A stretch of DNA of 20,449 nt, from positions 28,066-48,514 of the IMG/VR virus record IMGVR_UViG_3300030098_005157, one strand, 5' to 3'. Origin of the DNA: a virus. Numbering within the stretch: the first letter of the stretch is position 1; each line of letters begins with the position of its first letter. The notes beneath the pieces are model-generated. The model worked only from the letters and a program-made list of their open reading frames with translations. It was not told the origin of the DNA and searched no databases. Shown here piece by piece: positions 3,914-19,615 of the stretch. Position numbers and translations under genes: made by a program.

Positions 3914-4710
3914 TAGGCCATGCCCCCAAACAGGTAATTCTGGTCTTCGTCCTGACGCCTTCTCGGCTGCCCGAACATGCTGCCTAGAGCCATTTGATTC
4001 GAACCAAACGGCTGATAATCAAGGCCCGTAGAGCCTCCGGGGTTCGTAATCCTTCGGCGGCTTGCCATAAAGGACTGAGGGCTAAAGTCTGCCGCCCTTT
4101 CCTGGGCCTTTCTCATCTCCTCAGCCATCGCCAAATCCATCAGCCCACTGCCAGCAGCGAGGCCAGCTCCAATGCCCTGCCCGCCAGGGACAAAAGAAGC
4201 CACCGCGCTTCCTCCCTTTAAGATGGCTGACAAAACTCTAAAGGGGTCCTGACGCTTTTGCTCAGCAGAAACAATTTCTCTGCCAATGTTTGTAATTGGG
4301 GCGTAAATATTGGGGTCTGACAAAAGCTTGTCTTCAAAGCTTTCCCTAGCCCTAGCCCTGCTTGCAGAAGCAGCTAAGCCCTGGGGCTTGCCGATTGTCC
4401 CCTCCATGCGAGTGACGGCCCCAGTCTGGGGAATGCCAGCTCTACTGCTTTGCATAGCAAGCCGCTGCCCAGCCCCCTGAAGCGCCCTTGAGTAGGAGCG
4501 GTCAAGCAAGCTATCAAACTGACCACGAGCTTTTTCAAGCTTCGGGTCAACAAAAAACTTACCAATGTCCTCAGCAGTAATGCCGTCTAGGTAATCATAG
4601 CGAGGCTTATTGCTTGCAATCCCCTCTACAAGCTCGTTGTAGAGCCTTGTCCTATCGCCGCCGAACTCGTTTTCGAGGGCGCTTGCCAACATTTCCGAAT
4701 AGCTAGCCAT
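3913..4710 (-). CDS. 265-residue virion protein with Gly-rich hydrophobic segment, probable ejection protein
   Basis: The protein starts MASYSEMLASALENEF. The ATG follows TAGGAGC, which overlaps the TAG stop of the upstream gene. Residues 1-160 look helical and charged. Around residues 165-195 lies a Gly/Ala-rich hydrophobic stretch (GGSAVASFVPGGQGIGAGLA), a type of segment common in phage pilot/ejection proteins that insert in membranes. The C terminus is Gln/Arg/Gly-rich and probably disordered. It sits between two other suspected internal virion proteins and overlaps the next start as TAATG. The size suits a small internal virion protein of the T7 gp14 class, but I cannot claim homology. 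A head-tail completion role is the main alternative. Confidence 0.8.
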   Translation of the reverse strand: MASYSEMLASALENEFGGDRTRLYNELVEGIASNKPRYDYLDGITAEDIGKFFVDPKLEKARGQFDSLLDRSYSRALQGAGQRLAMQSSRAGIPQTGAVTRMEGTIGKPQGLAASASRARARESFEDKLLSDPNIYAPITNIGREIVSAEQKRQDPFRVLSAILKGGSAVASFVPGGQGIGAGLAAGSGLMDLAMAEEMRKAQERAADFSPQSFMASRRRITNPGGSTGLDYQPFGSNQMALGSMFGQPRRRQDEDQNYLFGGMA

Positions 4711-4718
4711 GACTGCTC

Positions 4719-5276
4719 CTAGCCCAGGTAATTCGGGTTGTCCTGGAAGGCTTTGAAGTCAGCCATTCCTGGGAGTCGGCCCTGCTCTTGGGAGAACTGG
4801 TTGATAAAGTTCTGTCGGTTTTTCATCTTCTCGCCAGCCACCTCAAGCGCCGCCATAAAGTCGCCGTGCTTTTCGCCACCCGGACGAATCGGCGCAGTCG
4901 CTGTTCCTACGGCCTGAGTAAGGAGGTTGGCAAAAGCCCCGATATTTCTGCCTCGAAGGTTTTCAAGAGTTTGGTCTGTAGCAAACCTGTTAGCTAGGTA
5001 CTGCCTTCGGGCAGCGTCCTTGGCTAGGTCTGCATCAACCTGCCCTAGAGCCTGAGACTGAGCCTGTTGCTGCGCTAGACCCCGAAGCATTGCCTGCTGG
5101 TTTGCCAGCGCTCGCCCATACCCATAACCGCTTTGGCTTGTCGGCATGTCGTAGATTTGCCCGAGCCGCTGAGCGTACATCGGCTCTTGAGAAAGTCGGC
5201 GCATAATCCGCATCCTGTCGATAGGCGACAGGAATGGTTCGATTTCGCGAAGGTATTGCTGGGTACGTCGAGCCAT
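4719..5276 (-). CDS. 185-residue Gln/Ala/Arg-rich virion protein, probable internal virion protein
   Basis: Unrecognised. It begins MARRTQQYLREIEPFL with a basic, helical N terminus. The middle is rich in Gln and Ala (ANQQAMLRGLAQQQAQSQAL) and probably forms long helices. There is a short Pro/Gly break (TATAPIRPGGEK), then a charged helical end. No membrane helix or enzyme motif is seen. The ribosome site is poor: only weak purine-rich sequence precedes the ATG, which lies eight bases after the stop of the 244-residue fibre-like gene, so coupled re-initiation is likely. It is the first of four consecutive helical genes interpreted as the ejection-protein set. Gln/Ala-rich composition is common in such proteins. 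The role is an inference. Confidence 0.75.
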   Translation of the reverse strand: MARRTQQYLREIEPFLSPIDRMRIMRRLSQEPMYAQRLGQIYDMPTSQSGYGYGRALANQQAMLRGLAQQQAQSQALGQVDADLAKDAARRQYLANRFATDQTLENLRGRNIGAFANLLTQAVGTATAPIRPGGEKHGDFMAALEVAGEKMKNRQNFINQFSQEQGRLPGMADFKAFQDNPNYLG

Positions 5277-9410: not shown

Positions 9411-10718
9411 CTACGCCTTAAAGTCAGATTCACTGGTGCCAGTGCTGTACTGCCAAGTCATTCTGCCCATAGCGCGCCTTCGACCGCCCCAGACAATCGT
9501 GTTTTGCAGGTTGGTTTTATCGAGGCCACCCATCCTGGCAATCCCCATCTCAAACCTTTGACGGGCAGAGTTCGCCCTGCCCTGCTCATCTGCCGCATCC
9601 AGCATCAGAGCTTCTGCTCCATCGAGGATAATGTGATGGAACTCAGCGTCGAACAGAGGACGGTCGTTGTCCTCGCTCATTGGCTTTGCCTCCATCTGAA
9701 TGATGGAGCGAATGTCGTACTCATCATCCGGGATGGGATAAAGCTGCATGAACAGAGACGAGGCGCTGTTGGGGCCAGCAGGGCCTAGGTAATCGTCCGT
9801 GGTGTCGTCGGTCAGAGAGATGGTTACATTCTGCGGATCGTGCAAAAGGTACGGAGCAGTTCCGTTTGCTCGGCTTCTGTAGACCCTGATGTTGAAGTCT
9901 TTTCGCGCCGTAGTAGAAGGAATAGTGACCAAGCCAACAGCCGCGTCAGAGATTGTCACAGCCACAGAAGGGCTAAGGGCAGACTCGGCTCCGCTCTGCT
10001 TGTCTACATGAGTGAACCAGTAGTTGTAGGTTCCAACAGCAAGGCCGGAACCATTGACGACGGAGAGCCCAGAGAGGGCGTTCTGAGGAGCGGGGATAGG
10101 CTCCTTCCTGGTGGTCGCAAACCGAGTGGGCCGACCCTCGACATCCATCTCTAGGTAGGCAAGCTCAGACGGGCTAATAGCGGCCATAGAGAGCGGCGTG
10201 CCGTAGGAGGAAGCGCCTCCCCTGAACAGAGTCGTGTTGACGACGGTCAGCGACCCAACTGGCAGGGCAACCTCGTCATAGATAATTTTAATGGAGTGGT
10301 TTGCAGTAGGCCCAGCGGCGATGGTTTGAGCACAACGAAGCGGACGGTCTAGCGTCCACTTATTCCCCGTTGGATTGACGTTTACGACTCGGTAGAAATC
10401 GTTGTCGATTTTTACTCGCTTCCCCATAACAGTCACGGGAGTGTTTCCGTGCTGAGAGATTGCGATTATTCGCTTCCCGGTTTCTGTCCCAACAACGTAA
10501 ACGCCATCAGCGGCAGGGGTGTTGTTGTTGGCTCCGGTGTTTGCCTTGAAGAAGGCAGCGTAGGTGGCGTAGGAAGCTTCTCTGCGAAGCCATCCCCACC
10601 TTCTCCTAGAGCAGATGTCTAGGTACGCCTGATTGATTCGGCGGTTTAACTTTGCGTCAGACTGGGAGTAGTCCTCACGCCGCTCTTGGAGAGCTGTTCT
10701 GAGTTCCGAGAGGTTCAC
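9411..10718 (-). CDS. Head-tail adaptor protein with fibronectin-like insertion
   Basis: GTG at 10718 is chosen because AGGAGGG lies six bases before it; a TTG two codons upstream (10724) abuts that site with no spacer. The protein has about 435 residues. The N terminus (NLSELRTALQERREDYSQSD, then INQAYLDICSRRRWGWL) is the helical motif of phage adaptor proteins that dock on the portal. A beta region follows (GKRVKIDNDFYRVVNV), then at about 206-316 a fibronectin type III-like domain (GTYNYWFTHVDKQSGAESAL; IRVYRSRANG). The C-terminal part returns to the adaptor pattern (YPIPDDEYDI, then DRPLFDAEFHHIILDGAEAL). The role is to join portal and nozzle. Its place directly before the nozzle gene agrees. 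Confidence 0.8.
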   Translation of the reverse strand: MNLSELRTALQERREDYSQSDAKLNRRINQAYLDICSRRRWGWLRREASYATYAAFFKANTGANNNTPAADGVYVVGTETGKRIIAISQHGNTPVTVMGKRVKIDNDFYRVVNVNPTGNKWTLDRPLRCAQTIAAGPTANHSIKIIYDEVALPVGSLTVVNTTLFRGGASSYGTPLSMAAISPSELAYLEMDVEGRPTRFATTRKEPIPAPQNALSGLSVVNGSGLAVGTYNYWFTHVDKQSGAESALSPSVAVTISDAAVGLVTIPSTTARKDFNIRVYRSRANGTAPYLLHDPQNVTISLTDDTTDDYLGPAGPNSASSLFMQLYPIPDDEYDIRSIIQMEAKPMSEDNDRPLFDAEFHHIILDGAEALMLDAADEQGRANSARQRFEMGIARMGGLDKTNLQNTIVWGGRRRAMGRMTWQYSTGTSESDFKA

Positions 10719-10750
10719 GAACAACCCTCCTAGAGCGAGTGAGTTTTAGA

Positions 10751-11254
10751 CTACGCCTTGCGACGGTAACGAACGAAAAAGCAAAGTCCGTCAAGAGCAA
10801 GAGCAGAAACGTCGCCGTCCTCCTTCATTTCGAAGAAAAGGACCTTCCCCTTGGGAACAACCTGATTCTGGTCAACGCCAATATTAACAAGAGTCGTTGC
10901 GGGAATCTCGTGAGACTTACCAGCGCCAGCCGAAACAAGCTCGACAGAGTTAGCTAGGTTTCCGTCATTGTCCCCACGCTTAAGGCGAAACTCAAAATTG
11001 TCGTTCGCATTATGAGCCCCGACTTTTGCCCCAATCCAGATGTGAACGCTTTCGATGTAAACATCAGCGTCATCAGCAGGAAGAAGGGCAACATTAACCG
11101 GGGTAGTGTGGTCAGCAATCGTATGAGCGACCGCGCCAGAGTTAGACTCGCTGCCGGCCAATCGACCGTAAGCGATACTGACATCTGACATAATCGAATA
11201 GCCAAAAGGAGCGTACTCCTTGGCTACCCGACTAACGTGTGCTGCAACAGCCAT
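10751..11254 (-). CDS. Beta-rich virion protein, possible capsid accessory or connector protein
   Basis: A 167-residue protein starting MAVAAHVSRVAKEYAPFG, with TAGGAGA six bases before the ATG. It is predominantly beta (ADVYIESVHIWIGAKVGA; NFEFRLKRGDNDGN; GKVLFFEMKEDGDVSALAL; LCFFVRYRRKA), consistent with a jelly-roll or Ig-like domain. It lies between the decoration protein and the adaptor and is separated from the capsid genes by a strong hairpin, so it may be expressed less than the capsid proteins. No family is recognised with certainty. A minor capsid/decoration protein, head fibre or neck protein would all fit. Confidence 0.75.
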   Translation of the reverse strand: MAVAAHVSRVAKEYAPFGYSIMSDVSIAYGRLAGSESNSGAVAHTIADHTTPVNVALLPADDADVYIESVHIWIGAKVGAHNANDNFEFRLKRGDNDGNLANSVELVSAGAGKSHEIPATTLVNIGVDQNQVVPKGKVLFFEMKEDGDVSALALDGLCFFVRYRRKA

Positions 11255-11274
11255 AATAATCTCCTAGTTGCGTA

Positions 11275-11298
11275 GGCAGGGGGCCGAAGCCCCCTGCC
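11275..11298 (-). terminator. Strong UUCG hairpin after the capsid/decoration genes
   Basis: A perfect 10-bp inverted repeat, GGCAGGGGGC and GCCCCCTGCC, flanks four bases. In the minus-strand transcript the loop reads UUCG closed by a C-G pair, the very stable tetraloop often found in terminators. It lies between the decoration gene stop (11311) and the next gene start (11254). No uridine tract follows (the RNA continues UACGCAAC), so it is not a complete intrinsic terminator by the standard rule. It may cause partial termination, pause polymerase or protect the 3' end of capsid mRNA. Confidence 0.7.
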
Positions 11299-11310
11299 AA
11301 CACACGTTGT

Positions 11311-11772
11311 TTAGCCGCGCTGGTTGAAAGCGTTGATAAAGCACTTCTTCAGAGCCTGTCCCGCACCCGGTCCATTCTCAAGGCAAGTGCCAATAACAAA
11401 CGTCGCAGAAGCGTTGGCCGTAAAGCCAGTAGCTGCGGCGACATGCGACAGGTAGTCGTTGTTGGCAGTCAGCTTGACTGCATCGTTCTTCGTAGCGCCA
11501 GTGTTCAGCTTGGCATCCACAACTCCGCAAATGCGAATCAAGACATCTTCGCCAGTGGCAAAGGTGCTTTTTCCTACACTGCCGAGCACAACGCCAGGAA
11601 TGGCAACCTGATGCCAAACCTTGTCGAGTGCGTCCACAGCCATCGTTGTGTAGCCATCGTCAGCCGTATCTCGCGGGTCAATCATTACGACATCTCCTCG
11701 CGAAAGAGCAGCGTGAGCCTTTGCAGCAACATCCAGCACAAGAGCTGAACCACCATGAATAAAAGTAGACAT
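11311..11772 (-). CDS. Probable capsid decoration protein
   Basis: A 153-residue protein starting MSTFIHGGSALVLDVAAKA, with AGAGAGGAA eight bases before the ATG. It is small, rich in Ala, Val, Gly and Thr, and beta-structured (GDVVMIDPRDTADDG; GVVLGSVGKSTFATGEDVLI, then RICGVVDAKL). The pattern of a variable region followed by a Gly-containing segment with short hydrophobic strands recalls phage head-decoration proteins that stabilise the capsid surface. It is the first gene downstream of the major capsid gene (19 bases), the usual place for a decoration protein, although some phages put it upstream. A second small head protein such as a head-closure factor is the alternative. Confidence 0.7.
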   Translation of the reverse strand: MSTFIHGGSALVLDVAAKAHAALSRGDVVMIDPRDTADDGYTTMAVDALDKVWHQVAIPGVVLGSVGKSTFATGEDVLIRICGVVDAKLNTGATKNDAVKLTANNDYLSHVAAATGFTANASATFVIGTCLENGPGAGQALKKCFINAFNQRG

Positions 11773-11791: not shown

Positions 11792-12853
11792 TTAGAACTG
11801 GACTGCGCCGGTAAACGTCGTGATTCCCTGACGGGCCAGCGACGATGCGGTCAGCATGCAAGTGAAATACTGGTGGGCCATGATGACATCGCTGTTCGGC
11901 GGCGTCATAAAGTCCGTCATGCGGAAATCGTCGTTCGACAGGATTCCAAGCTGCAACCCAACGCCCGTCGCCTTACCCTGAACCATCGGGTTCTTCCCGA
12001 TGACCGAGAAGTCTTCCGGCTTCAGGTTGAAGTCGTTGACTCCGCGCTTGCCAGTGGTGGTCAGGAAGTAAGCCTCGCCGCCCGTGAGCTGCTCTGCGGG
12101 GACAACCGGAGTGCCCTCGAAGAGAAGGTTCTGGAAGCCCTGGTCCCAAAGTGCGTTGTCACGCTCAATCTGGTTCGGAGCCACGAGCCGCTTGAAGAAG
12201 CGGTAGACGCGGGGGTCAACCAGAATGATGTCCGGGTGGGTGCCCTTCTTCGAGCAGTCCATGTAGACCTGCTCCCAGGCGTCCAGACCATCGGTGCCAA
12301 AGGCGGTGATGGTGGCGAACTGGTTCTGCCAGTTTGCGTAGTTTGCCTGGGTAATGCCGCCAACAGTTCCGACAGTACCCGTAGAGGAGATAAAGTCGGG
12401 AAGTCCCTCAATCTCCTTGGGGGCACCAGTGTTGCTCGTAAAGAGCTGACGCGAAAGCTCGTTCATCAAGCTAATCTTGGCGATTGCCATCTTAGCGTTG
12501 AGGAGGTTCACAATCTGGTACGCGCCACGGTTCTGAGAAAGCTCAGTGTTATCAACGATAACGGAGGCGCGGTTCTTGTACCAAGTGGGGTAACGAGCAG
12601 TGTCGGGACCATCCTCGGGAGTCGTCGCGAAAGTCTCGTAAGTGCTGATAGCAGAGACGTTGGAAGACTCGGTGAGGACGACCGGCAGGCGGCACTCAGT
12701 GCCACCTTCGTACATCACTGCACCCTGTCGGTACATATGAAAGAGCAGAGGGTTAGACTGGACGATTTCCATCGCCACAGTATCGCGAACAGCCTGGAGC
12801 GTAGTCGAATAGACCCGATCCAGCGCCAAACCATTAATTGTATTTGCAGGCAT
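11792..12853 (-). CDS. Major capsid protein, HK97 fold
   Basis: A 353-residue protein whose ATG is preceded by AGAGG with six-base spacing; that site overlaps the TAG stop of the scaffold gene. The N-terminal helix region (TLQAVRDTVAMEIVQSNPLL) is followed by the extended-loop pattern (MYEGGTECRLPVVLTESSNV, then DTARYPTWYKNRASVIVDNTE), as in capsid proteins of many podoviruses and siphoviruses. A spine-helix-like stretch (NLLNAKMAIAKISLMNELSR) and P/A-domain strands (PDIILVDPRVYRFFKRLV; DFSVIGKNPMVQGKA) follow. There is no protease-processing signature and no protease gene nearby, so assembly probably relies on the separate scaffold encoded next to it. Length, pattern and position between scaffold and decoration genes agree well. 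Confidence 0.9.
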   Translation of the reverse strand: MPANTINGLALDRVYSTTLQAVRDTVAMEIVQSNPLLFHMYRQGAVMYEGGTECRLPVVLTESSNVSAISTYETFATTPEDGPDTARYPTWYKNRASVIVDNTELSQNRGAYQIVNLLNAKMAIAKISLMNELSRQLFTSNTGAPKEIEGLPDFISSTGTVGTVGGITQANYANWQNQFATITAFGTDGLDAWEQVYMDCSKKGTHPDIILVDPRVYRFFKRLVAPNQIERDNALWDQGFQNLLFEGTPVVPAEQLTGGEAYFLTTTGKRGVNDFNLKPEDFSVIGKNPMVQGKATGVGLQLGILSNDDFRMTDFMTPPNSDVIMAHQYFTCMLTASSLARQGITTFTGAVQF

Positions 12854-12862
12854 TTAAGACCT

Positions 12863-13663
12863 CTAAAAGTTAATCCCCTGCTCCTTGAGGGCACGAGTAG
12901 CAGCTTCCAAAGCAGTTTCCCGCTTCTTCTGCCGAACCACCGTCCCCTTTCGGGATGCAACGGGTGCCGCTTCGCGGCGCTTCTTTGACTTCACTTGTGA
13001 CTTGGCGACCGTCATGTTGCTTTTGGCAACCTTGGCCGCTAGCCGTACTGCCCTTGTCGGGTCGGCCTCAGCCAACTCTCCAAGGTCAGGATCGGAGTCG
13101 AGTACACGGCCAACTTCTGCGGCAAGGACTTTGTGGTCAAGGTCCGGGTTCTCGGCTGCAAAAGACTGATACGCACGAACAACACGTTGCTGATTAACAA
13201 CGGGCTGCATTTCCTGCGCCGTCTGAGCGATACCAAGGTTGTCTAGCTTCTCTTGCACAGCCTTATTGACATAGTAGTTAATGACATCCTGTGGGGATGC
13301 GCCATCAGCTACGTCTGGAGGGCCTTCATCCTGAACAACCTCTTCTGCTGCGGGGGACTGCTTACTAAGCATAAGCTGGTCAACTACAGCGCGCTGGTCT
13401 TCAAGACGACGACGCTCCATTGCAAGAGCCTGAGTCTTCCTTGTGTAATCTGCCTGACGAAGAAACCCTTGCTTCAAAGTCTCTTTGAGGTCATCAGAAA
13501 TGTCTTCCTGACTCTCAAGAAACGCAATGGGGTCTTCGTTTATGTCCGGGGCTTGGCCCTCATCCTCTGTGTACTCAACGCTTTCGTCTGCCGAAGCGCC
13601 GATCCCCTCGTCAGAGTTGTCCTCAAATGGGATCTCTGTTCCGGGGTTGTCGGTGGCATCCAT
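12863..13663 (-). CDS. Capsid scaffolding protein
   Basis: I choose ATG at 13663 because AGGAAAGG lies eight bases before it; GTG at 13669 is in frame but too close to that site. The resulting 266-residue protein has a very acidic N-terminal quarter (FEDNSDEGIGASADESVEYT), a helical middle with a coiled-coil-like stretch (TLKQGFLRQADYTRKTQALA, then MERRRLEDQRAVVDQLML), and a strongly basic C terminus (KSKKRREAAPVASRKGTVVR). Acidic/helical/basic organisation is typical of phage scaffolds, whose basic C-terminal end contacts the capsid protein. It sits directly before the major capsid gene. It is the first gene of the leftward operon and is divergent from the portal gene. Confidence 0.85.
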   Translation of the reverse strand: MDATDNPGTEIPFEDNSDEGIGASADESVEYTEDEGQAPDINEDPIAFLESQEDISDDLKETLKQGFLRQADYTRKTQALAMERRRLEDQRAVVDQLMLSKQSPAAEEVVQDEGPPDVADGASPQDVINYYVNKAVQEKLDNLGIAQTAQEMQPVVNQQRVVRAYQSFAAENPDLDHKVLAAEVGRVLDSDPDLGELAEADPTRAVRLAAKVAKSNMTVAKSQVKSKKRREAAPVASRKGTVVRQKKRETALEAATRALKEQGINF

Positions 13664-13682
13664 TTGCACAACCTTTCCTGCG

Positions 13683-13736
13683 CTGACTTAATTGTCAGAC
13701 TGCTATTATCAGGGTGCATTTTATAATCGTTGTCAA
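13683..13736. promoter_or_regulatory. Divergent control region between portal and scaffold genes
   Basis: This stretch lies in the only divergent gap of the structural block (13664-13749). It holds an operator-like inverted repeat CTGAC-TTAATT-GTCAG at 13683-13698. Plus strand: a perfect TATAAT at 13722-13727, 22 bases before the portal ATG, but with no good -35 at normal spacing (TTGTCA at 13692 is 24 bases away). Minus strand: a perfect TTGACA at 13736-13731 facing the scaffold gene, with GATAAT at 13710-13705, a spacer of 20, which is too long for a strong sigma-70 promoter. Each strand therefore has one ideal element. A regulated or activator-dependent promoter pair is inferred. Confidence 0.4.
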
Positions 13737-13749
13737 GTACCATCGCGAC

Positions 13750-15738
13750 ATGGCACGACGAAAAAAAACACTGACAGACGATGAGATTTCTCTTTGGCAT
13801 CAGCGCATTGCTGCCGCAGAGGAATTTCTCGAAGACAATATCCTTCCACACTGGAGAAAAGTTTTTCTCGATTACGAAGGAAATTACAGAGATCAGAACA
13901 CCGACCCATATGCGGAAGACGACGTACCTTCCATTAATTATTTGCTGGCAACAGCCAACACAATTGTCCCCTCGGTAGTCTCTGCTGACCCATACGTTCG
14001 TTGCCTTCCACGGCGACCCGGCGACGAAGAAGGGGCAAAGATTGCAGAAAACGCCCTTAACTACGTCTTCAGAGAAGTTGATCTTAAGTCTGTCCTAAAC
14101 GACGTAGTGCTCGACTCAATCCTTTTTAACTGCGGATTCGCAAAGGTCGGCTATGACCCATCTGGCGCTTTCCTCATGGAAGAAGAGTACGAGGTAGGTC
14201 CAGAGAAGCTTGACGAGGAAGACGAAAGCGTTCTTTCTATCGACGCTCAAATGAGGCTTCGTCAAGCGCTTGCAGACGAAGACATTCCATTTGACGAAGG
14301 CCCACAGGACAACCCCACCATTGAGAGAGTTGCTCCCTGGGACATCCTTGTTCCTCCTGGGTATGAAGACATTCAAAAGTGCCCTTGGGTCTGTCAGAGA
14401 ATGACAGTTCGAGTCCAAGACCTTGAGGCTGACGAAAGATTCAAAATCCCCAAGGGCCTTGAGCCCGACTCTTGGCTGACCTCTGAAACCCCCTCTGCCT
14501 TTAACTACAAACAAGAAGATTACATGGGGTTCGATGACGACGACCGACCTGAGTATCTAACTGTTTACGAGATTAGGCACTGGGGCAAAACAAGGCTTGG
14601 CGGGCGACGACGATGCCTTTGGCTTATCCGGCCTCAAGAGGGAATCTCTCTAAGCGATTGCGTTATTCGCCACATTGACGACCCCCTTGAGATGCGTGGC
14701 TACCCCTACCAAATGCTGCGCTTTACCAAGGTGCCAGGAGTCTTTTACTCGCCAAAGGTTGCTGACCTTGCGGCGATTCATGGGCTAGCCGACCAGCTCA
14801 ACAAGGAGTGGCAGCACCTTATCCGCCACCACAAGATGACATCGAAGCGCAAGTGGGTCGGGCTTCCTGGAATCCTAGAGGACGGAAGCCTCCAAAACCT
14901 CCTTGAATCTGACTACGACATGGAGGTTGCTGAGCTTCCTGCCAACGTCGGAGACATTCGCAACGCCCTAATGCTCCTGCCGGAAGCTCCTCCCCCGAGC
15001 ACAACCCCGATGGTCCTTCAGGGCCTCGCTCGACTGATGTACGAAATCAGCGGTGTTGACGTTTACCAGCGAGGCGGCGTCGGCAGAAAGGGAACGACGG
15101 CGACAGAGGTTGCTGTTGCGGCCCAGGGTGCCTCGAACCGAGCAGGCGTTCGACTGGGAGCCACGGAGCGGTTCACTGAAAAGATTGCCCGTCAGGTTCT
15201 CTCGGTCATTCGTCAGTATTGGGATGACCCACGGTACATGCGAATTACTGGGGTTAGCGGTGAGCCAGAGTTCGTTATGTTCTCTGCCGCCGACATCATC
15301 GGAATGTTTGACGTTCGAATCGAGTCGGGCTCAACGCTTGGCAAGGACCCTGGAACAGAGCAGCAGGCTTTCATGGGACTGCTTCAAACTATCCAGGCAA
15401 CAGTCTCTTCCCTTATCCCTCTTGTTCAGGCTGGCATTGCACCGCCACAAACCATCCAGTCCTTTGTGGAAAAAGCCTTTTCAATCTGGCAAGCTGACAA
15501 GCGTATGCTTATGGAGCCGCTTGCAGCACTTCAGGGCGCAGCTACCCCTCAGACTTCTCAGCCCTCACCGGGCGGAATGACTCCTCCGGGCGGTCTTGAA
15601 GGACGAGGGATGGGCGCAGAAGGCCAGCCTCTTGCTGGTCCTCGACCAATGGAGGAAAGAACACCGGGCGGCGCTTCCAGTGGAACCGGAGGAGCGGCTG
15701 ATTTAGCCACCCTCATGGCAAGAGTTAGAGGATCTTAA
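13750..15738 (+). CDS. Portal protein
   Basis: ATG at 13750 gives 662 residues starting MARRKKTLTDDEISLWHQ; an in-frame GTG at 13714 would add 12 mostly hydrophobic residues and is less likely. Neither has a clear Shine-Dalgarno site. The N terminus (EEFLEDNILPHWRKVFLDYE, then DDVPSINYLLATANTIVPSV, SADPYVRCLPRR) is the characteristic wing region of portals of about this size. Further on, ERVAPWDILVPPGYEDIQKC and WVCQRMTVRVQDLE continue the fold, and MYEISGVDVYQRGGVGRKGT, then TATEVAVAAQGASNRAGVRL, is a typical crown/stem transition near residues 430-470. The last 80 residues are a Gly/Pro-rich linker ending in a short helix. The protein forms the dodecameric DNA channel that docks terminase. 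Oddity: it lies opposite in strand to terminase, scaffold and capsid genes. Confidence 0.9.
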   Translation: MARRKKTLTDDEISLWHQRIAAAEEFLEDNILPHWRKVFLDYEGNYRDQNTDPYAEDDVPSINYLLATANTIVPSVVSADPYVRCLPRRPGDEEGAKIAENALNYVFREVDLKSVLNDVVLDSILFNCGFAKVGYDPSGAFLMEEEYEVGPEKLDEEDESVLSIDAQMRLRQALADEDIPFDEGPQDNPTIERVAPWDILVPPGYEDIQKCPWVCQRMTVRVQDLEADERFKIPKGLEPDSWLTSETPSAFNYKQEDYMGFDDDDRPEYLTVYEIRHWGKTRLGGRRRCLWLIRPQEGISLSDCVIRHIDDPLEMRGYPYQMLRFTKVPGVFYSPKVADLAAIHGLADQLNKEWQHLIRHHKMTSKRKWVGLPGILEDGSLQNLLESDYDMEVAELPANVGDIRNALMLLPEAPPPSTTPMVLQGLARLMYEISGVDVYQRGGVGRKGTTATEVAVAAQGASNRAGVRLGATERFTEKIARQVLSVIRQYWDDPRYMRITGVSGEPEFVMFSAADIIGMFDVRIESGSTLGKDPGTEQQAFMGLLQTIQATVSSLIPLVQAGIAPPQTIQSFVEKAFSIWQADKRMLMEPLAALQGAATPQTSQPSPGGMTPPGGLEGRGMGAEGQPLAGPRPMEERTPGGASSGTGGAADLATLMARVRGS

Positions 15739-16334
15739 TGCCGTATTACCCGCTTCAATGCACGTTCAAGTCCTGTCTGATGGAGTTTGAGCACTTTACA
15801 ACTCCAGCTCTATACGCAAGAAGCAAGAATGACGGGTTCCGTGATGTTCGATGTACTTACTGCGGGAGCTTTGGCGCTCAGCGGATTTATCCTGCTGACT
15901 CAGCCCCCGCAAACTTGACTGTTAAGGGGACCTGGGGGAAGCACGCCTCGCCAGGGCTTAAGGGCAAGGAATACTACACAAAGCAAGAGCGTGACCGGCA
16001 GTTAGCTTCAGTGGGAAGCTCCGGCGGTGTTTACGACGGAGAGGGCTCTGAGCCCCAGACCCCTAGCAGCACAAAGACTTACAAGGCTGATAAGGACGGA
16101 AAGATTAAGCTTGTAAAGCGGCAGGGTAAGAAGCTTGTCCCAGTGGACTCGCAGCGAAAGCCCGCAGAGCTAATCAAGGAGTACGCAGCCAACAACAACG
16201 GGGTTGTTGATTTCGCTGGCCTAGCTGAAAAGACGAAGGTCGATAAGAGAAAGCTTCAAGGGGGAATCCTCGGCGCTCTTCGCCAAGGGTGGCTAGAGAA
16301 GACAGAGGCCCCTAGGGTTTACCGCCTTTCTTGA
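15738..16334 (+). CDS. Zinc-ribbon plus winged-helix-like protein coupled to the portal gene
   Basis: A 198-residue protein whose ATG overlaps the portal stop (TAATG), with AGAGGA just upstream. Residues 1-50 contain CTFKSC (C8, C13) and CTYCG (C39, C42), a four-cysteine zinc ribbon resembling the FmdB-like ribbons found in some phage structural clusters. A polar linker (about 60-135) follows. The C-terminal segment (about 141-198; ELIKEYAANNNGVVDFAGLA, ending EAPRVYRLS) has the helix-helix-hairpin look of a winged helix. It could bind DNA to regulate late genes, or assist portal or terminase assembly. Its last 16 bases overlap, end to end, the 3' end of the large terminase gene. Function is not established. 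Confidence 0.85.
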   Translation: MPYYPLQCTFKSCLMEFEHFTTPALYARSKNDGFRDVRCTYCGSFGAQRIYPADSAPANLTVKGTWGKHASPGLKGKEYYTKQERDRQLASVGSSGGVYDGEGSEPQTPSSTKTYKADKDGKIKLVKRQGKKLVPVDSQRKPAELIKEYAANNNGVVDFAGLAEKTKVDKRKLQGGILGALRQGWLEKTEAPRVYRLS

Positions 16335-18238
16335 GCTTTCATTAGCTTGCTTTTCACCCTTCTAGTCCAACGCTCATACTTATCCCACTCTTCTGAGGAC
16401 CATTGATTGTGGTCGCCAGAAGAAGCCTTTGGCGAGTCGGACCTGACCTCCGACCCGCTTCCTGGGCTGTAGTGAGCGACGGCGTTTGCAATCATCATTG
16501 ATACGCAAGCGTCGTCGTTCTTGCCCGGAGGAGCGTTCATCTTCGCGTCAGCATCGTGGCCGTCTGGAGTCTTTGTGATTGTGCGCCGATAGGCGACCAT
16601 CTCTTCTAAGACTTTCTGAGAGCGGATTTTGATGTAGCCCTCCTTGAGGGCCTTCTGCATCAGCCCAACCATCGCTGGCTTTGTCTTTTTGTTGGTGTCC
16701 CAACCGATTGTCGTTGATGGAACCGACAGAGAATCAACCGTCTTTCGACGGTACATATTCCAATACTTAGTCTGATTAAGCATGGCGATTAGGCCAGCCC
16801 CAAGGCCAGAGACTTCAGGCGCAAGCATCGCGTTGTTGTAGTGCAGAGCAATCATCAGCGAGACTTCAGCGAGGATGTCTAGCTCGACCTTCCCTCGCCA
16901 CTCAGCAACCTGCTCCATTGAAGCGATGTCCACAACTGTGATGTGGTCCCAGTCTCCTGAAGCTGCGCCTTTGCTTACGTCTACGCTAACAACGTACCTT
17001 CTTCGTGGTTTTGGATGCCTCCAAACTGAGAACCTGCCTGACCCCTCCATGCACTCTTCGAGCACAGGAGAGTAGCTAGAGAAGATTCTCGACCTTCCCG
17101 GCTCAGAACCAGAGCCGTCAACGATTTCGTACCACTGGTGCTCGGGGCAATCGTTCTCGTCGGATGTCCTAATCTTCTTCGCGCAAATGTCGCAAGGGCA
17201 TGCGTGCTCTCTGATTTGGTCCCAGATGATGTTCTGGTCAAACACCGGGCTTCCTGTGGTGGAGAAAGCTTCTTCGTCTGTGCTTGGGTACTCCTGGTGA
17301 AACCGCTCAAGAGATCCGCCGCACTTACTGACTAGGGTTTCCCTTCTCCACTGGAGGTTCTCAAGAGTTATCCAGTCTTCAAACTGCTCAAGAAGATCTT
17401 TTTCGTCCTGGTCTAGGCTCTTTAAAAACTCGTCTTCAGAAACTCGAAGAGGACGAGCGTACTCCTCCATCAAGAACCAGGGAGTAAAGAGCGCATACCA
17501 AGTGGAGTCAGGGTGGCCTGGATGCTTTCGCTTTAGCGTCATCCACGGCGGAATCTCATCCCACCAAACATTGGCAGCTAGGTACTGGGTGTGGTGAAAG
17601 TCGCCAGAGCCGTTGCAAGTAGACTCTGAGTAAACCATCGTTCCAGCCTCTTCAGGCACAGCCTGCAACGTGGCTAGGAAGAACTCTTCAGGCCGCTTGT
17701 AGAAAGCCACCTCTGAGCAGTGAACCTGACGAGCAGTAGCACCACGAGCATCGTCCACACTCTTTGCGGTCATAACCACAAAGCGAGAGCGAAGACCGGC
17801 TGGCCCCTGGGGCGCTCTAAAGTCTAGCTCGTACACGTTGTTGTAACGAGTTAGCGGCTTCACCTCGTTGGGCAAGTAGTCGTAGAAGACCTTGCACTTA
17901 GTGAAGATTGTCCGAACTGAAGGCTCTGTGTGTGCGGCAACGAGAGCAATCTCATCGTTGTTTGTCAGGCAGCGCCAAAACATTCTTGCCTGGACATGAG
18001 TCGAGCAGCCTAGCTGACGCGCTTTGGCTTCCCAAACTCGAACGGGCAATCCAGCTTTTTCGATTTCGCAAATCAGACCCTCTCTCATCAACTGAGAGCG
18101 GTTCAATTTAAGATTCAGGAATTCTCCATTCTTGGTCTGAATCTTAAGGTACTTCTCTGCGAATGCGATGAAGTCGCTGTGCTTGCCAGAGGTCAGCGTA
18201 TCAGCGGCCTCATCAACGTACTTCTTCTTCGCTGCCAT
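16319..18238 (-). CDS. terL: Terminase large subunit (packaging ATPase and nuclease)
   Basis: A 639-residue packaging motor. The ATPase domain shows the adenine/Q region near LKLNRSQL (about 43-50), a variant Walker A KARQLGCST (72-80), Walker B with catalytic Glu in VHCSEVAF (E176), and the coupling motif MVYSEST (201-207). EYPSTDEEAFSTTG (316-329) is a common terminase motif. The nuclease domain has D420 in VVSVDVSKG, acidic residues at GDWD (429-431), APEVSGLGAG (E475) and the final NDDACVSMM (D575/D576), consistent with RNase H-fold metal binding. Between the domains, C347, C349, C352, C364 and H367 form an unusual Cys/His cluster. The ATG overlaps the upstream stop (TAATG) with GGAGGGG just before. 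It cuts and pumps DNA through the portal, which here is encoded on the opposite strand. Confidence 0.95.
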   Translation of the reverse strand: MAAKKKYVDEAADTLTSGKHSDFIAFAEKYLKIQTKNGEFLNLKLNRSQLMREGLICEIEKAGLPVRVWEAKARQLGCSTHVQARMFWRCLTNNDEIALVAAHTEPSVRTIFTKCKVFYDYLPNEVKPLTRYNNVYELDFRAPQGPAGLRSRFVVMTAKSVDDARGATARQVHCSEVAFYKRPEEFFLATLQAVPEEAGTMVYSESTCNGSGDFHHTQYLAANVWWDEIPPWMTLKRKHPGHPDSTWYALFTPWFLMEEYARPLRVSEDEFLKSLDQDEKDLLEQFEDWITLENLQWRRETLVSKCGGSLERFHQEYPSTDEEAFSTTGSPVFDQNIIWDQIREHACPCDICAKKIRTSDENDCPEHQWYEIVDGSGSEPGRSRIFSSYSPVLEECMEGSGRFSVWRHPKPRRRYVVSVDVSKGAASGDWDHITVVDIASMEQVAEWRGKVELDILAEVSLMIALHYNNAMLAPEVSGLGAGLIAMLNQTKYWNMYRRKTVDSLSVPSTTIGWDTNKKTKPAMVGLMQKALKEGYIKIRSQKVLEEMVAYRRTITKTPDGHDADAKMNAPPGKNDDACVSMMIANAVAHYSPGSGSEVRSDSPKASSGDHNQWSSEEWDKYERWTRRVKSKLMKAQERR

Positions 18239-18840
18239 TACCCCTCCATGTAAACAGACATTCGACGGCTAGGAGGAGGAAGCTCGTTTGACTTAAAGCT
18301 TTTCTTCATCCTAGCTCGCCAGTCAGCCATGTTTTCCCTAATGCCCTCGACCTCATCTTCATGAATCATCCGGCAGTTCCACATTGTGGTCTTCATTGTC
18401 CTGTGAGGGTAAGTCACAAAAGCCACATCCAAGTGGTTTCGAACGACATCCATAAGCCTCTTAGCTAGATACCTGCCGACGCCAAGTCTTTCTCCCAAGG
18501 TTCTCGGGGAGATATACCCAGACTCGTTCGCTTTCTTGAAAGCCCTTTGAGCCACTTCGTCGGTAAAGACTGGAGCGCCTGGAAGAATGGGAGGGCCGAC
18601 ATGCCAGTTCTCGTCAGCCCCAATCCACTTCCTCCACCTTTGCTTGGTGAGGATAGCGTTCCTCCACTGCTCCATTTCCCAACCGTAACGAGCTTTATCG
18701 TCATCGAAATCTGGAACAACCACGTTTGTCTGAAGAACAGCCCTGCCTTCTTTTGAGACAGAAACGGGGCGGTATTCAGCATCAGGATTTGCTGCGGTGC
18801 GCCAAGAGCTGACGCCACCCACTCGGGAGTTTCTAGCCAA
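18238..18840 (-). CDS. Candidate terminase small subunit / DNA-binding protein
   Basis: A 200-residue protein directly before terL, with a TAATG overlap. The start is probably TTG at 18840 (reading MARNSRVGGV), which overlaps the preceding gene by eight bases; AAGGG lies immediately before it with almost no spacer, so coupled re-initiation is likely. Residues about 110-134 (ISPRTLGERLGVGRYLAKRL) look like a helix-turn-helix, in agreement with a small subunit that recognises packaging sites. The middle is Trp-rich (MEQWRNAILTKQRWRKWIGA) and the C terminus is basic and Pro-rich. Position is the strongest evidence; the sequence does not match a subunit I know. It might instead be a late-gene regulator. 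Confidence 0.7.
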   Translation of the reverse strand: MARNSRVGGVSSWRTAANPDAEYRPVSVSKEGRAVLQTNVVVPDFDDDKARYGWEMEQWRNAILTKQRWRKWIGADENWHVGPPILPGAPVFTDEVAQRAFKKANESGYISPRTLGERLGVGRYLAKRLMDVVRNHLDVAFVTYPHRTMKTTMWNCRMIHEDEVEGIRENMADWRARMKKSFKSNELPPPSRRMSVYMEG

Positions 18841-19165
18841 CCCTTATATACCGACCCGCCGAAACCATCTTCCAGTCACGGCGCTCGTTCTGAGAAAGCA
18901 GGCGAAAGGTAGGCTCGTCAATTTCTGCAACCGGCTCTGCCGCAACGGGCTGCTCTGCAACCGGCTCTGCCGCAACGGGCGCTTCGGCAAGTATTGAAGA
19001 AACTTCTCGGATGTCATCGCGAGCAGAGGTAACTGCATCAAGCAAAGACTTGCGCCCTTTTCCCTCAAGCTCAGCATCGTAAACTGCGCTAAGTTCTTCA
19101 TCAGTAAGTCCGTCAAGCTTGGCAATAGCCTTCTTAACGGTCAGGCTGTTAGGGTCAAATAACAT
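18833..19165 (-). CDS. 110-residue protein with Ala/Pro/Val-Glu repeat, first gene of terminase operon
   Basis: Unrecognised. It starts MLFDPNSLTVKKAIAKL, with GGAG six bases before the ATG. Residues 1-60 are helical and charged (ELSAVYDAELEGKGRKSLLD). A linker of repeated AAEPVAEQPV units spans about residues 62-82, encoded by a near-perfect 30-bp tandem repeat. The short C-terminal part (PTFRLLSQNERRDWKMVSAG, then RYIRVG) is conserved-looking and basic. Two small parts joined by a flexible linker suggest a bridging protein, perhaps between DNA or terminase and another partner, but this is a guess. Its gene is divergent from the basic-protein cluster, with only 22 bases between the two ATGs. 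Confidence 0.7.
   Translation of the reverse strand: MLFDPNSLTVKKAIAKLDGLTDEELSAVYDAELEGKGRKSLLDAVTSARDDIREVSSILAEAPVAAEPVAEQPVAAEPVAEIDEPTFRLLSQNERRDWKMVSAGRYIRVG
18924..18980. repeat. 30-bp-period in-frame tandem repeat
   Basis: A 27-base sequence at 18924-18950 (TCTGCAACCGGCTCTGCCGC, then AACGGGC) is repeated exactly at 18954-18980. The period is 30 bases, so the reading frame is kept and it encodes the Ala/Glu/Pro/Val linker of the overlapping minus-strand gene. Such repeats can change copy number by slippage without breaking the gene. Confidence 0.85.
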
Positions 19166-19187
19166 CTTAAACTCCAGGGTTACTATT

Positions 19188-19307
19188 ATGGCTTACACCA
19201 AAAAGAAGAAAACTCCAAAAAAGACTACCGCCAAGAAGCGACCGGCAGGAAGCTCTCGAAAGCGAAAGCCCGCAAAGAAAAAGAAAACGTATGGGGGGAT
19301 GTATTAA
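19188..19307 (+). CDS. 39-residue Lys/Arg-rich basic protein
   Basis: ATG at 19188 gives 39 residues beginning MAYTKKKKTPKK and ending KKKKTYGGMY, of which about 17 are Lys or Arg. An upstream in-frame ATG at 19119 exists, but it would lie inside the opposite-strand gene and its extra residues look non-coding. The preceding CCAGGG is a weak ribosome site. The stop overlaps the next ATG (TAATG), tying it to the 102-residue basic protein. Such proteins may neutralise or condense DNA, or be packaged in the head. Function is inferred only from charge. Confidence 0.65.
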   Translation: MAYTKKKKTPKKTTAKKRPAGSSRKRKPAKKKKTYGGMY

Positions 19308-19615
19308 TGCCCTTAAAGAAGAAACCGATGTCCAAGGCAGCAAGAGCTGTTAAGCGGGCTGGGGTTTCTGGCGTCAACAAGCCAAAGCGAACTCCTAAGC
19401 ACCCGAAGAAAAGCCACATCGTCGTCGCCAAGGTAGGCGAAACCGTGAAGACAATTCGGTTTGGAGAGCAGGGAGCCAGGACTGCCGGCAAACCAAAGTC
19501 TGGAGAAAGCGACCGGATGAAAAAGAAGCGAGCTAGCTTCAAGGCCCGACACCGGAAAAACATCGCCAAGGGCAAACTCTCAGCAGCCTACTGGGCAGAC
19601 AAGGTGAAGTGGTAG
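19307..19615 (+). CDS. 102-residue basic protein with RH-x-NI-x-KGK...AYWADKVKW C-terminal motif
   Basis: The protein starts MPLKKKPMSKAARAVKRAG with a disordered Lys-rich N terminus. It then has a compact part: HIVVAKVGETVKTIRFGEQG (about 37-56), a Lys/Glu loop, and RASFKARHRKNIAKGKLSAA followed by YWADKVKW (about 75-102). This C-terminal pattern (FG..G, a basic helix with RH, then a Trp-rich end) is one I have seen in small proteins of marine phages, and it is similar in layout to short proteins of large algal viruses. I cannot confirm a family here, and the function is unknown. It is coupled to the 39-residue gene upstream and followed two bases later by another basic protein. Confidence 0.8.
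   Translation: MPLKKKPMSKAARAVKRAGVSGVNKPKRTPKHPKKSHIVVAKVGETVKTIRFGEQGARTAGKPKSGESDRMKKKRASFKARHRKNIAKGKLSAAYWADKVKW

Follow-up and report, generated by a model that had tools for sequence, protein, structure and literature searches.

A portal–zinc-ribbon gene pair inverted between terminase and capsid genes in a clade of uncultured podovirus-like phages

The window, that is, the whole stretch of DNA analysed (20,449 nucleotides), covers bases 28066–48514 of a virus record of 48,514 bases (IMG/VR IMGVR_UViG_3300030098_005157). Its minus strand carries, in the direction of reading, a probable small terminase gene (terS, 18238–18840), the terminase gene terL (16319–18238), the gene of the scaffolding protein (12863–13663), and that of the major capsid protein (MCP, 11792–12853), beyond which connector and tail genes follow on the same strand. 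TerL (639 residues) matches phrog_2 at 7.5e-18, and its profile matches the T4 gp17 structures at 4e-11; the scaffolding protein matches phrog_3927 (head scaffolding, 4.7e-11) and the MCP phrog_9953 (major head protein, 5.4e-40). The terS candidate adjoins terL and is assigned by position only: it has no family match in Pfam or PHROG profile searches, and it is homologous in most relatives. Upstream of the terminase operon and divergent from it, the plus strand at 19119–19615 contains very lysine-rich short ORFs, possibly encoding small basic proteins.

On the minus strand, terL and the scaffold gene are about 2.6 kb apart, and this space is filled by two plus-strand genes encoding the portal protein (13750–15738; 662 residues) and a zinc-ribbon protein, ZnR (15738–16334; 198 residues), the portal stop and the ZnR start sharing 1 bp. 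The portal matches two Pfam families above their curated cut-offs, SU10_portal (1.3e-25, 90.3 bits, cut-off 30) and P22_portal (6.6e-12, 45.2 bits, cut-off 26.1), as well as the PHROG portal profile (2.9e-17). Its start at ATG 13750 was fixed by comparison among relatives: a longer frame from GTG 13714 was rejected, as it contains a stop codon in contig L002. At one end, the island meets terL tail to tail, with a 16-bp coding overlap (16319–16334) that holds the stop codons of both genes; at the other end, the portal and scaffold genes face each other from a common control region of ~86 bp. The sequence-only reading had described this same arrangement, portal start included, and the ORFs, strands, and family matches agree with it.

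ZnR looks like a zinc ribbon followed by a winged helix. Its four cysteines are invariant in 12 diverse homologues, seven of which match Zn_ribbon_8 (FmdB-type) with E values up to 0.5 and 5e-4 at best, while the window protein itself has no match; one homologue matches HTH_11 at 2.6e-4. In the AlphaFold model, the N-terminal part has a pLDDT above 90, and the C-terminal part is predicted, with lower confidence, as a helix-strand-helix-helix-hairpin arrangement. A fold search of the PDB with this model returned nothing at E ≤ 0.001. Such a domain composition may make ZnR a candidate regulator acting at the divergent region.

Scans in which the portal, TerL, and MCP served as queries gathered more than 200 IMG/VR loci, and the distinct portal-bearing contigs were sorted by gene order and strand using iterated profile HMMs. 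The portal gene is opposite to scaffold/MCP in all 49 distinct clade contigs that show it together with the scaffold or MCP gene, and in no clade contig examined has it returned to the capsid strand, the portals being 37 to 99% identical to that of the window. The ZnR gene lies beside the portal gene in every clade contig that reaches so far, and of the 52 contigs in which terL is visible, 50 have it on the capsid strand. The search for relatives in bacterial genomes found none. The inversion thus proves to be fixed in a lineage, as had been proposed with conservation of strand order among diverged relatives as its test, since the order is kept with portals down to ~37% identity; the contrary outcomes named beforehand, namely, canonical order in all relatives or an assembly inversion at the junctions, did not occur. 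That the island is an assembly artefact or a chimera has a negligible probability: the record is metagenomic and has a gap, but the only one seen is a run of 10 N at genome positions 28056–28065, just left of the window, no N-run lies inside the island, the same junctions recur in dozens of diverged, independently assembled contigs from many metagenomes, including one with a 99% identical portal (L012), and comparison with these independent contigs rules out an assembly inversion. The inverted architecture, taken alone, is held with near certainty.

The probable ancestral order is indicated by the three nearest outgroup contigs (L126, L132, and L211), which have TerL, portal, ZnR, scaffold, and capsid genes in this order on one strand, with a portal of ~30% identity and, where measured, an MCP of 36 to 41% identity; the connector and tail genes are syntenic in L126 and L132. 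In the outgroup, terL and the portal gene are contiguous, the portal start either overlapping the terL stop or lying right next to it. Since ZnR directly follows the portal gene in these contigs, a single in-place inversion of the two genes gives exactly the window order, with portal and ZnR reversed between TerL and scaffold. On a concatenated tree of portal, MCP, scaffold, and ZnR, portal orientation has to change once and TerL orientation twice, and one inversion is the simplest reading. It is not proven, because the inverted clade forms one branch with weak support (75/47) and a portal-only tree places the canonical outgroup inside it; an inversion with a later reversion, or two inversions, is consequently a live alternative.

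The two TerL changes concern the contig pairs L085/L087 and L095/L198 and no other groups: here, TerL, and terS too where seen, is also on the portal strand, so that portal, ZnR, terS, and TerL form one series divergent from scaffold and MCP. As judged from gene order and tree, TerL was flipped twice, independently, giving a P2-like layout in phages with an SU10/P22-like portal. The TerL of the clade and that of the nearest outgroup gave no significant match in a profile comparison, which speaks against their orthology. This suggests a terminase replacement in L126, L132, and L211, ahead of a homologous portal-ZnR-scaffold-capsid series; as the outgroup TerL appears to be a different one, the replacement may belong to the inversion event. 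The tails of terL and ZnR overlap by 14 to 44 bp in 46 of 50 contigs, which leaves no intergenic room for a terminator.

On the scaffold side of the control region, a −35-like TTGACA (13731–13736, minus strand) is conserved among relatives and may belong to the scaffold/capsid promoter. The motif GATGGTACTTGACAA at 13730–13744 is the sole match within the window, and TACTTGACA is found in 129 of 230 loci, at the portal-scaffold junction and, with the exception of one locus, in a single copy per locus. Over 37 distinct regions, the per-base conservation of TTGACA amounts to 89 to 100%. No TTGAC is present between the ZnR start and the scaffold start in the three outgroup contigs. The candidate −10 of the scaffold, CTGATA (13707–13712, minus strand), placed after an 18-nt spacer, is weakly defined: an A at the fourth place is shared by 84% and a T at the fifth place by 73% of distinct regions. 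A consensus promoter scan gave no sigma-70-like site at 13.7 kb, with a total number of sites not above that of shuffled sequence.

The scaffold leader carries, ahead of the Shine-Dalgarno (SD) sequence, the inverted repeat CTGAC-AATTAA-GTCAG (13683–13698, minus strand), whose pairing seems to be kept in position: in many relatives, differing stem sequences, each folded singly, pair at the corresponding site. The lowest-energy fold of the whole window leader does not use the CTGAC/GTCAG stem. The scaffold gene starts at ATG 13663, with an in-frame GTG at 13669. Across the clade, the scaffold SD is strong, with a median of −9.3 kcal/mol versus −2.6 kcal/mol for the portal; the values for the scaffold genes of the three outgroup contigs are −3.3, −3.6, and 0 kcal/mol.

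On the portal side, most starts in the clade have no SD, and a candidate −10, TACCAT (13738–13743, plus strand), lies 6 nt before the window ATG, which would imply a leaderless portal mRNA. Of the 25 distinct portal starts that lack an SD, 23 carry a TAnnnT motif 6 to 7 nt ahead of the ATG, counts that are not phylogenetically independent, and nearly all SD-bearing starts have no TAnnnT at this spacing. The variants TACCAT, TAGCAT, TATCCT, and TAAGAT share only T1, A2, and T6 as constant positions. Leaderless initiation is not universal, as an SD precedes the portal in some deep clades. L057, L061, and L077 retain TACCAT followed by a longer leader with an SD. A −10 farther upstream (TATAAT, with a gap of 22 in the window) was discarded, being absent from most relatives, and no conserved −35 for the portal promoter was found among the relatives compared. 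TACCAT is one base away from the TTGACA of the scaffold, and two polymerases could therefore not sit on both. These features suggest that the two divergent promoters overlap and that the portal message is weak and leaderless.

Promoter-like TTGAC-N17/18-TAC(C/A)CT sequences are also found at other operon starts, at genome positions 5991 (plus), 5720 (minus), and 656 (minus), and likely represent a promoter type shared within this phage; the portal TACCAT resembles their TAC(C/A)CT part. Pfam detected no phage-encoded RNA polymerase among the larger left-end proteins scanned, where a giant ORF on the minus strand, encoding more than 3,000 residues (genome 17863–28068, L133/L134) and lying left of the window, has no Pfam match. 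The left part of the genome, as seen in L133, also carries an AAA ATPase gene (4157–5050, minus) and a PD-(D/E)XK nuclease gene beside a recT gene (9459–11703, plus).

A tailed-phage head requires ~12 portal subunits against hundreds of capsid subunits, with one portal per head. How phages achieve this has long been asked, and the usual answers invoke translation and the kinetics of assembly inside one operon. In the reading that we favor, to which we give a probability of about 0.5 as a whole, the portal-ZnR cassette of an ancestor with the order TerL-portal-ZnR-scaffold-capsid would have been inverted precisely in place, and a large clade of uncultured podovirus-like phages would have inherited the new order as a fixed state. 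The portal would thereby have been separated from the late operon, and the ~86 bp that lie between it and the scaffold gene would have turned into a back-to-back control region. Scaffold and capsid would be driven by the strong TTGACA promoter, with the leader hairpin and the SD, and the portal-ZnR message by an overlapping, weaker promoter, SD-less and probably leaderless. Since the RNA polymerase sites would overlap, firing of one would tend to exclude the other, and mutual exclusion would yield few portals and many capsid subunits. Separate transcription had indeed been proposed, from the window sequence, to set the 12-to-hundreds ratio; the conserved scaffold promoter and the weaker, apparently leaderless portal start are compatible with such a role and support it in part. 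The stricter claim that the portal is its own transcription unit with a leaderless message and that polymerase exclusion at the DNA level fixes the ratio, an undescribed way of rationing, is advanced only tentatively. As this lineage has its portal outside the operon through a polarized inversion, and canonical outgroups are available for comparison, the role of transcription becomes testable.

A serious rival, possible rather than probable in our judgment, is a frozen accident: one inversion that brought no regulatory gain and whose reversal would break the terL/ZnR tails together with the newly evolved scaffold and portal promoters. The coding overlap of these tails in 46 of 50 contigs would make a clean reversal costly, and the head genes of all the canonical relatives inspected do without an inversion. 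However, the two TerL flips in subclades indicate that breakpoints there are tolerated, yet no reverted portal was seen in the clade, and there is specific conservation of the promoter and of the start signals.

According to another explanation, modeled on P2 Ogr, ZnR would bind the shared divergent region and turn on both promoters late, the inversion serving co-activation and not the ratio. The zinc ribbon and winged-helix-like C terminus of ZnR are consistent with this, as is the single annotated activator site between the two divergent head promoters of P2. We nevertheless consider it improbable: ZnR follows the portal gene in the canonical outgroup too, and its presence is thus independent of divergence, no operator repeat has been established, and the ZnR structure search gave no match at the threshold stated above.

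Compared with known systems, the arrangement is closest in outline to that of P2 (Peduoviridae), where the portal gene is likewise opposite to scaffold and capsid: the Q portal and P TerL genes diverge from the O scaffold and N capsid genes, and the control region between these divergent head operons carries the annotated activator site. The premise that head genes nearly always lie on one strand leaves P2 out of account and is thus not supported. The two systems differ in that P2 TerL goes with the portal and has its own start, instead of that of the portal, facing the scaffold, whereas the window TerL stays on the capsid strand, tail to tail with ZnR; moreover, the window portal is SU10/P22-like, with no evidence of P2 ancestry. 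Among annotated phages, MW202803, MW202692, Roseobacter phage CRP-7, and Mx9 have recognizable TerL, portal, and/or MCP homologues, and Escherichia phage Pollock (Schitoviridae, N4-like) has a distant portal (24.5% identity); the head genes that they show, including portal, MCP, and terminase in Pollock, lie on one strand in each, as they do in the three outgroup contigs, which share ZnR and scaffold with the window clade. In the open-access papers surfaced by the literature searches, judged by title and abstract except for PMC3091744, there is no report of an inverted portal or divergent portal/scaffold of this kind. The suggestion that the architecture is undescribed therefore stands in part: divergence of portal and capsid is known from P2, and what is new here is that only portal and ZnR are inverted, TerL keeping to the capsid strand, a layout that none of the annotated relatives inspected shows. 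One-strand head modules are not obligatory, and a P2-like divergence has been reached independently.
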